In this document: one piece after another, positions 2,419 through 30,906 of the stretch | How positions within the stretch are numbered: the stretch's first letter is position 1 | Layout: every line of letters begins with the position of its first letter | Origin: Candidatus Pantoea edessiphila | GTDB taxonomy: Bacteria; Pseudomonadota; Gammaproteobacteria; Enterobacterales; Enterobacteriaceae | DNA length: 64,000 nt | Direction: 5' to 3' | Assembly: GCF_002933355.1 (NCBI RefSeq) | Contig: NZ_PDKU01000003.1 | Span: 1 to 64,000 of the forward strand | The notes under the pieces: generated by a model | The model's database searches: none | Seen by the model: only the letters and a program-made list of their open reading frames with translations | Told to the model about the DNA's origin: nothing | Position numbers and translations under genes: made by a program

Positions 2419-4128
<1,710 letters not shown>

Positions 4129-4169: not shown

Positions 4170-5228
4170 ATGGGGTTAAGTTATAAAAAAAATTTTTTTC
4201 TGAAATTGCGTCTTTTTATTGCAATATGTATTGCTGTTTTATTAATAATACTCGATTGTAAGATAGGTTTGCTTATAAGAATTAGGAGTTATTTTGATGT
4301 ATCTATAGGATTACTTAATTCTTTAGTTAAAAAACCTGCACAAATCATAACTCATACATTAGAAAACTTTTCTGCAAATAGAGTTGCACAATTAGAAAAT
4401 AGAAAATTACGTCATGAATTATTTCTAAAAAATATTGAAACAATTTTATTTGATCAATATAAAGAGGAAAATAAATATTTACGCAAACTATTAGGTGCTA
4501 TCTCACAGCATAATGAGCGTGTAATGCTTAGTAGAGTTATGTTTACAACATCTATTCCATTTGCTGATCAAGTAGTAATAGATAAAGGTCAAGTAGATGG
4601 TGTATATCATAATCAACCTGTTATTGCTGATAAAGGTATTGTAGGTCAAGTCATATCTGTAAATAAAACCACTAGCCGCGTTCTATTAAGTTGTGATGCT
4701 TTAAGTGGAATACCTATAAAAATATTACGTAATGGTATTCGTGCGGTTGCATTAGGCAACGGTTGCAACAAGAGCTTTGATCTTAAGTATCTAGCAAACG
4801 ATGATTTTTATAGTAAAAGTATCTGTCTTGGAGATATTGTGGTGACTTCAGGTATATATAGTATGTTTCCAGAAGGTTATCCAGTTGGGGTAATATCATC
4901 TATTAGATATGATAAACAGAAATTAAATATTTACGTTCAAATTACTCCTACCACTAATTTCAAAAATTTAGATCGTTTACTTTTATTATGGAAAACAAAA
5001 GATTCTATTATATCAGAATCAGACAAGTTAGATAATTCATCAGATAATTCATCAGATAATTCATCAGATAATTCATCAGATAATTCATCAGATAATTCAT
5101 CAGATAATTCATCAGATAATTCATCAGATAATTCATCAGATAATTCATCAGATAATTCATCAGATAATTCATCAGATAATTCATCAGATAATTCATCAGA
5201 TAATTCATCAGATAATTCATCAGATTAA
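4170..5228 (+). CDS. mreC: Rod-shape protein MreC with a repeat-expanded tail
   Basis: MreC is a bitopic inner-membrane protein that links MreB to periplasmic wall-synthesis enzymes. One membrane segment lies at about residues 12-33, followed by a coiled-coil region and the beta-barrel MreC core (VVIDKGQVDGVYHNQPV, GIVGQVISV, GDIVVTSG). Length is 352 against 367 in E. coli. From residue 288 to the end the protein is sixteen DNSS repeats plus a final Asp: an unusual acidic, serine-rich, surely disordered periplasmic tail replacing the normal C-terminus. It starts 41 bases after mreB. Confidence 0.96.
   Translation: MGLSYKKNFFLKLRLFIAICIAVLLIILDCKIGLLIRIRSYFDVSIGLLNSLVKKPAQIITHTLENFSANRVAQLENRKLRHELFLKNIETILFDQYKEENKYLRKLLGAISQHNERVMLSRVMFTTSIPFADQVVIDKGQVDGVYHNQPVIADKGIVGQVISVNKTTSRVLLSCDALSGIPIKILRNGIRAVALGNGCNKSFDLKYLANDDFYSKSICLGDIVVTSGIYSMFPEGYPVGVISSIRYDKQKLNIYVQITPTTNFKNLDRLLLLWKTKDSIISESDKLDNSSDNSSDNSSDNSSDNSSDNSSDNSSDNSSDNSSDNSSDNSSDNSSDNSSDNSSDNSSDNSSD
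5031..5222 (+). repeat. 16 perfect copies of a 12-bp repeat inside mreC
   Basis: The unit GATAATTCATCA occurs 16 times in succession without a single substitution, in frame with mreC and coding Asp-Asn-Ser-Ser. It is followed at once by GAT TAA, the last codon and the stop. Identity at synonymous positions shows recent expansion by slippage or unequal exchange rather than ancient conservation. Confidence 0.98.
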
Positions 5229-5334
5229 TAGTATGATCATAAATAAAGTAATAACTTTTTATCAAATAACAATTAATTTGATCAATTCTTAATAAATATA
5301 ACAAATATATAATACGGTTTTGATAAGGTTAAAC

Positions 5335-5811
5335 TTGAACAAGTATTATTTTCAAAGCAAAAAATTAATTTTTCAATCTTTCATTCTAGTTTTATTATTA
5401 CAAATAATGCCATGGCCTCAAATAATTTATATATTACATCCTTCTTGGTTCTTGCTTTTCCTTATATACTGGGTATTAGCTTTACCGTATTTTATTAACG
5501 TAACTAGTGGTTTTTTACTAGGTATATTAACCGATGTTACATCTGGATCTAAGTTGGGTGTTAGTGCTCTTGTATTTAGTATAACGTCCTACTTAATTGC
5601 TGATAAATTTCAATTCATTCGTAATTTAAAATTATGGAAACAAATTTTTTGCGTTATGTTGATATCTATGTCAATCAATGTAGCTATATTTATAGTTGAA
5701 TATTTAACAATTAGAGCTTCATTTAGATACGAAATATTTTTGAATAGTATCATTAATGGTTTAGTTTGGCCGTTGTTTTTTTTATTGTTAGAAAAATTTT
5801 ATTATAATTAA
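5335..5811 (+). CDS. mreD: Rod-shape membrane protein MreD
   Basis: MreD is the polytopic third member of the MreBCD shape complex. The sequence is very hydrophobic with about five membrane segments and has the LLLQIMPWP motif at residues 20-28, at the same position as in E. coli MreD. I take the TTG at 5335 as start: AAGG lies 6 bases upstream (5325-5328) and the resulting N-terminus aligns residue for residue with E. coli. A TTG at 5320 would add five residues without a ribosome site. 158 residues against 162. Confidence 0.93.
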   Translation: MNKYYFQSKKLIFQSFILVLLLQIMPWPQIIYILHPSWFLLFLIYWVLALPYFINVTSGFLLGILTDVTSGSKLGVSALVFSITSYLIADKFQFIRNLKLWKQIFCVMLISMSINVAIFIVEYLTIRASFRYEIFLNSIINGLVWPLFFLLLEKFYYN

Positions 5812-30611: not shown

Positions 30612-30824
30612 ATTTGTATATTAGCAAGGTTTGTGTAGTTATAAAGGTGAGATTTGTATATTAGCAAGGTTTGTGTAGTTATAAAGGTGAGATTTGTATA
30701 TTAGCAAGGTTTGTGTAGTTATAAAGGTGAGATTTGTATATTAGCAAGGTTTGTGTAGTTATAAAGGTGAGATTTGTATATTAGCAAGGTTTGTGTAGTT
30801 ATAAAGGTGAGATTTGTATATTAG
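30612..30824. repeat. Tandem array of a 40-bp repeat, 5 perfect copies
   Basis: Five identical 40-bp units run from 30621 to 30820 (starts at 30621, 30661, 30701, 30741, 30781), each beginning TTAGCAAGGT and ending GATTTGTATA. Partial copies flank them: ATTTGTATA at 30612-30620 and TTAG at 30821-30824. There are no spacers. The array ends 11 bases from the 3' end of tRNA-Ile2, so on the minus strand it lies in the trailer of that tRNA. 40 is not a multiple of 3 and all frames contain stops. Confidence 0.97.
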
Positions 30825-30834
30825 ATAATATAAA

Positions 30835-30906
30835 TGGCCCCTGCTGGATTCGAACCAGCGACCAAGCGATTATGAGTCGCCTGCTCTACCACTGAGCTAA
30901 GAGGCC
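30835..30906 (-). tRNA. ileX: tRNA-Ile2 (CAU anticodon, lysidine type)
   Basis: A 72-base tRNA with acceptor GGCCTCT / AGGGGCC, anticodon loop CTCATAA (CAU), T-arm GGTTCGAATCC and discriminator A; CCA is not encoded. The anticodon suggests Met, but the sequence GGCGACTCATAATCGC and the position beside rpoD match E. coli ileX, whose C34 becomes lysidine through TilS so that it reads AUA. AUA-type codons are common in this A+T-rich genome. Confidence 0.92.

Follow-up and report, generated by a model that had tools for sequence, protein, structure and literature searches.

The closest known cases to the array described here are the tolA repeats of Blochmannia and Escherichia coli. In the available part of PMC4389277, the tolA repeats of Blochmannia resemble it in lying, in frame and in tandem, within an envelope protein encoded by an insect symbiont with a reduced genome; their length and sequence vary among species and one species of six has no repeats, just as arrays are absent from some of the genomes compared here, but the units of the long-repeat species measure 81-102 bp and lie within TolA, whereas those studied here are 12-30 bp long and sit at the C-terminus of MreC. 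The tolA gene of E. coli likewise carries short in-frame units (15 bp) in an envelope protein, with a copy number shown to be variable and to affect stress tolerance (available part of PMC3477136), whereas the mreC array is known from one genome per species. The repeat of this study lies in MreC, and TolA (PF06519) was detected in none of the six genomes of the genus, with the E. coli control being positive. Contingency loci, in which simple sequences drive phase variation, also place a tandem repeat in coding sequence, as in mreC, but the mreC unit is a multiple of three, so that no on/off switching follows. The MreC tails of larger-genome relatives occupy the same place as the array, behind an LLLLW end, but they contain no perfect tandem arrays and are mostly rich in Pro, Ala and Gln, with a motif common to most. 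A search by title and abstract of the open-licence literature on Edessa symbionts, Blochmannia MreC, and grpE and endosymbiont in-frame repeats yielded no publication describing these arrays; PMC8032781 nowhere uses the word mreC, and the accessible portion of PMC9251289 holds nothing on symbiont repeats.

The window, the whole 64,000-nucleotide stretch analysed, carries on its plus strand mreC (4170-5228), an open reading frame of 352 aa whose core matched the MreC models above their cut-offs in profile searches (PF04085, E 4.8e-36, 124.2 bits against a cut-off of 28; TIGR00219, 216.3 bits against 92.75) and aligned to the solved chain 7eft_A (residues 10-275). Upstream on the same strand lies an open reading frame that we recognise as mreB (3085-4128), its product 91-99% identical in 17 loci, and downstream one that we take to be mreD (5320-5811), with products 39-61% identical and adjoining mreC in 17 loci; its start at 5320 is the mechanical start of the frame, and the true one may be slightly more internal. 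Behind the MreC core, where the Pfam match ends at residue 273 and the last predicted strand at residue 275, a short non-repeated spacer (4995-5029, plus strand) leads into the array. The sixteen perfect 12-bp repeats of the preliminary description were confirmed and slightly extended: the maximal perfect period-12 stretch spans 5030-5225 on the plus strand (196 bp, 16.33 copies, zero mismatches), within which 5031-5222 comprises 16 whole in-frame units (GAT AAT TCA TCA), followed by one GAT and, immediately after this partial last unit, the stop codon TAA (5226-5228), so that the encoded tail reads (DNSS)16 D. TCA accounts for 27% of the Ser codons genome-wide, and with the codon usage of this genome the chance of the same codons recurring in 15 further DNSS copies is about 10^-18.7, far beyond chance, which identifies the copies as DNA duplicates and bears out the earlier claim that identity at synonymous sites reflects in-frame expansion at the DNA level. 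The array is unique within its genome, as a two-unit pattern has 15 match sites in 837,119 bp, every one of them within mreC. With perfect units inside a gene and a period divisible by three, it is an in-frame intragenic tandem repeat of the VNTR type; it stays in frame up to the stop, and gain or loss of a 12-bp unit changes its length without shifting the reading frame, as had been proposed and unlike the length changes of a contingency locus.

We compared six genomes of the genus, namely that of the window (G000), SoEE (G001), SoEX (G002, Pantoea sp. from Edessa oxcarti), G003, SoEO (G004) and SoET (G005). The reduced genome to which the window belongs, with 12 contigs and a GC content of 27.4%, is very probably that of SoEL, the gut symbiont of the stink bug Edessa loxdalii in the "Ca. 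Pantoea edessiphila" group, for which the available part of PMC8032781 (Table 1) gives 0.837 Mb, GC 27.6% and 12 scaffolds; G003 is probably SoBr from Brachystethus, listed there with 30 scaffolds. Symbionts of this kind in pentatomids inhabit crypts of the midgut and are transmitted by egg smearing (available part of PMC7728854), and Edessa symbionts lack lipid A synthesis, save lpxA in some (available part of PMC8032781). Tandem Repeats Finder was run over all of SoEL, 848,614 bp of SoEE and 455,945 bp of SoET (about half of that genome), while SoEX and SoEO were surveyed over 80 kb around mreC, and SoBr at mreC and in family searches.

We found mreC in all six genomes, and the MreC core of SoEL is 54-60% identical to those of four relatives and 41% identical to that of the fifth. 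Perfect arrays are present in three of the six, with three different units at one place: besides the 12-bp unit of SoEL, SoEE has 9 copies of a 30-bp unit (DSSTRTKPIE) and SoET 15 copies of a 21-bp unit (DSSDNTS), both after the conserved LLLL end. SoEX has a plain tail of 18 aa, rich in Asn and Ser, and the tails of SoEO and SoBr measure 0 and 6 aa. Relative to the species split marked by these core identities, the expansion is recent, as the preliminary description had held. Its description of the tail as acidic does not extend to the arrays in general, since that of SoEE is neutral, with 18 negative and 18 positive residues (17 and 0 in SoEL, 30 and 0 in SoET). In SoEO the stop codon follows LLLL within a 13-bp duplication (12 of 13 positions identical; L013:2306-2360), and behind it lies a stretch of 28 open codons in a different frame; because of these two features, a plain tail appears to have been lost there. 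Separate births of the arrays are indicated by their unlike periods (12, 30 and 21 bp), and the end of MreC gives the impression of a site that acquires repeats recurrently and tolerates them.

Beyond the genus, a scan of 105 other mreC loci, from which four duplicate records of Edessa symbionts had been dropped, recovered two perfect arrays, those of SoEE and SoET. None was found among the 100 loci outside the genus (at least 2.5 copies in the last 500 bases), which are the best matches, many of them from Vibrio, with reduced symbionts thinly covered and further duplicates sought by a crude search; an identical tail in distant relatives, which would have argued against a recent expansion, was likewise looked for and absent. 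Among 18 larger-genome relatives the MreC tails range from 59 to 227 aa (median 71), a set that leaves out one locus with no measurable tail, one reduced genome (26 aa) and more distant loci (2-79 aa). Most of these tails carry an EVxRxANERLMQMMPQVLP-like motif, which was not seen in any of the six genomes of the genus. The view that repeats replace the C-terminus of MreC thus stands insofar as the tail motif of the relatives is gone, but it needs to be widened from an event in one strain to arrays in three of six genomes with three units.

A structure predicted from 24 sequences, of modest confidence overall (mean pLDDT 67.3, pTM 0.44), places a long helix at residues 6-108 followed by strands at 116-275, the N-terminal helix and beta-rich core expected of the family. 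Residues 279-352 have pLDDT values below 50 and are predicted to be disordered, in agreement with the long disordered tail proposed earlier. From the known topology of MreC we take the tail to be periplasmic, and the array units contain what we assume to be N-glycosylation sequons. The tail would form a polar, flexible string whose specific role, if any, is slight; no known role of the MreC tail was found in the available parts of PMC7793260 and PMC13327600, the tail discussed in the latter being that of RodA.

We also scored arrays inside mechanical open reading frames of at least 90 aa. At scores of at least 150, they occur in SoEL in mreC, in grpE and three times in a porin of 809 aa, in SoEE in mreC, grpE, a DacA-like gene and a CyoA-like gene, and in the surveyed half of SoET in mreC and grpE. 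The MreC, GrpE and porin of SoEL were identified by Pfam; the DacA-like and CyoA-like genes are so named by recognition, and the GrpEs of the other genomes are taken as such by recognition together with a sequence match. At scores of at least 90, the period is divisible by three in 14 of 14 arrays inside reading frames versus 12 of 34 outside (Fisher P 2e-5), and at scores of at least 50 in 91 of 135 versus 91 of 343, with 44 arrays inside reading frames having other periods. In grpE of SoEL (G000:C5:28131-28841, equivalent to L126:8131-8841), an array of nine 18-bp units (AELEKS) lies near the N-terminus, and the arrays of SoEE and SoET share this N-terminal place and the 18-bp period with differing units. 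The open frames of grpE in SoEO, SoEX and SoBr comprise 217, 208 and 204 codons, which is 24-52 codons shorter than in the array genomes (241, 256 and 244); judged from frame length, this suggests smaller arrays or none in these three. If grpE arrays are absent there, both arrays fall in the same three genomes, with a chance of 1 in 10 for five genomes or 1 in 20 for six, which would be a faint hint of a genome-wide tendency to arrays. A view of array birth comes from the CyoA-like gene of SoEE (G001:C9:33386-34357, in L232), which ends in (NMNH)10 with a perfect 12-bp unit, where SoEL and SoET have a single MNH at the same site; the comparison shows an array arising from a one-motif seed. Different perfect arrays in two housekeeping proteins of related symbionts, with a seed visible in a third gene, amount to parallel repeat birth.

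We consider it probable, though well short of certain, that (DNSS)n arose within its lineage when a few codons of the unstructured C-terminal tail of MreC were multiplied in tandem by slippage and RecA-type recombination, with reading frame as the filter and the disordered end of the protein tolerating the outcome. This reading is favoured because the codons of the copies are identical, three units occupy one place, and tails of 18, 0 and 6 aa suffice elsewhere in the genus; because long coding arrays have periods divisible by three without exception, the CyoA-like gene offers a seed and the tail is predicted to be disordered; and because MutS, RecA and MutL all exceed their cut-offs in the six genomes, while contraction of the tolA repeats in E. 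coli is RecA-dependent and MutS-independent. An array would grow from a short seed by replication slippage and RecA-type unequal recombination, and its loops, longer than about 4 bases, would lie beyond the reach of mismatch repair, which covers bulges of about 1-4 bp (available part of PMC3477136). According to the same part of that study, contraction of the 15-bp tolA repeats drops to 15% when RecA is missing, shows no significant change in the absence of MutS, and expansions were not recovered; for the symbiont, we infer slippage and recombination. Selection would then filter the frame, and arrays would persist where the protein is loose, since in-frame length change of a dispensable, disordered tail would be cheap in a drift-prone symbiont. 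Counted against tolerated expansion are the occurrence of both mreC and grpE arrays in all three surveyed genomes (P 8e-5 against random placement, a post hoc value that treats relatives as independent) and the 352-399 aa of the array-bearing MreCs, as selection for length would give. Loss of mismatch repair was rejected as a cause, as MutS and MutL are present in all six genomes. DNA hairpins were rejected as a general cause, as the four array strands of SoEE and SoET fold no better than shuffles (z 1.15 to 1.37); the minus strand of the SoEL array does fold better (z -3.24, 1 of 200 shuffles as good), and its plus strand gave z -1.68, with 12 of 200 as good.

A single old ancestral array, with units rewritten in each lineage by concerted evolution and losses in SoEX and SoEO, would account for the same pattern, and we regard it as unlikely. 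For grpE, the units of an old array may have been rewritten, given their weak residual similarity: place and period are common to three genomes, and the three-way unit similarity (P 0.01) agrees more readily with an old array than with separate origins, although the pairwise values are P 0.27, 0.05 and 0.13. In SoEE grpE, moreover, EQTQSV is followed by DQTQSV, a variant unit that has spread over adjacent copies in the manner expected of homogenisation. For mreC, the units of SoEL and SoEE have an 8-mer in common (P 0.012, uncorrected, one of six pairs), but the other five pairs show nothing clear (P 0.09 to 0.99) and the periods differ. In an unrooted tree built from 61 proteins common to five genomes, SoBr not among them (17,399 columns), SoET and SoEX are united with 100% support and SoEE joins them at 92%; as SoET is thus grouped with the array-less SoEX, arrays arose, or were rebuilt completely, within individual lineages, and an old array requires losses in SoEX, the sister of SoET, and elsewhere. 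The tree of MreB and MreC with SoBr and outgroups (613 columns), of weak support inside the genus (66-85%), likewise keeps the three array genomes ungrouped.

Rather improbable, in our assessment, is that selection maintains a spacer at the end of MreC, in the form of a long disordered tail that tandem expansion rebuilds after loss of the old one. Such selection would explain the recurrence of arrays in one gene and the array-bearing lengths of 352, 385 and 399 aa, inside the range of the 18 relatives (329-497 aa), and it has a precedent in E. coli TolA, whose repeat number alters stress tolerance (available part of PMC3477136), but SoEX, SoEO and SoBr live with short tails or none and charge is not preserved among the arrays. 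We favour tolerated expansion and treat selection for length as the bolder, minority reading. In a broader form, to which we give similarly little credence, Edessa symbionts would repeatedly rebuild lost disordered ends by tandem expansion, selection keeping the length while the sequence is free, so that MreC and GrpE would carry selected, self-renewing spacers of tunable copy number. If true, copy number would be a tunable trait in bacteria with few other routes to adapt. The parallel birth of repeats makes the choice between neutral tolerance and a selected spacer a testable question.

That the array is a contingency locus, its copy number varying between cells and tuning MreC, we consider very unlikely: perfect units, the presence of RecA and the preserved frame are compatible with it, as are E. 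coli tolA contractions at about 7e-5 (available part of PMC3477136), but the 12-bp unit keeps the frame and so provides no usual on/off switch. Copy number also depends on the assembly. The genomes new in PMC8032781 were built from Illumina 2 x 300 reads with Unicycler "as in" an earlier study (available part), and assemblies of this type may misstate the number of repeats. Exact 127-bp tandem duplications in small contigs (L040:3167-3424 in G000:C2, G001:C1:11940-12193 and G005:C2:3370-3624), probably assembly overlaps and not biology, suggest an assembly k of 127; since the 196-bp array exceeds this apparent k, the copy number of 16 is the assembler's estimate. An array that is nonexistent or grossly wrong would fit this short k but is highly improbable, as in-frame arrays with different units occur in three assemblies, periods divisible by three throughout the 14 long coding arrays are not what an artefact would produce, and two arrays, in the CyoA-like gene of SoEE (125 bp) and in grpE of SoET (126 bp), are shorter than k, so that the doubt concerns only the copy number.

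Several further repeats were observed. In the OmpF/C-type porin of 809 aa (L153:1541-3970, or G000:C5:281541-283970, outside the window), Asn/Pro-rich repeats totalling about 440 aa interrupt the core, first a 15-bp unit in 44 copies (NPNNS and HPNDW are examples), then a 27-bp unit in 8 copies (NDKNINTDK). The insertion lies between residues 220 and 232 of the OmpF chain 3hw9_A, which we take to be an outer loop, and the open frames of the porin across the six genomes range from 367 to 810 codons. SoEO hflK (L174:17752-19053) has 3.9 perfect 21-bp copies near its C-terminal end. Within the window, two perfect 41-bp copies lie in the intergenic region upstream of mreB (2451-2534), and an intergenic array of 5.3 perfect 40-bp copies (30612-30824) adjoins a tRNA-Met gene (30835-30906, minus strand), with no match in the surveyed sequence of SoEE and SoET. 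Finally, at the start of a small contig of SoEE (L185:1-205, G001:C4), a 20-bp unit that contains TTATCCACA, presumably a DnaA-box sequence, is repeated about 10 times, and this start is perhaps a plasmid origin.
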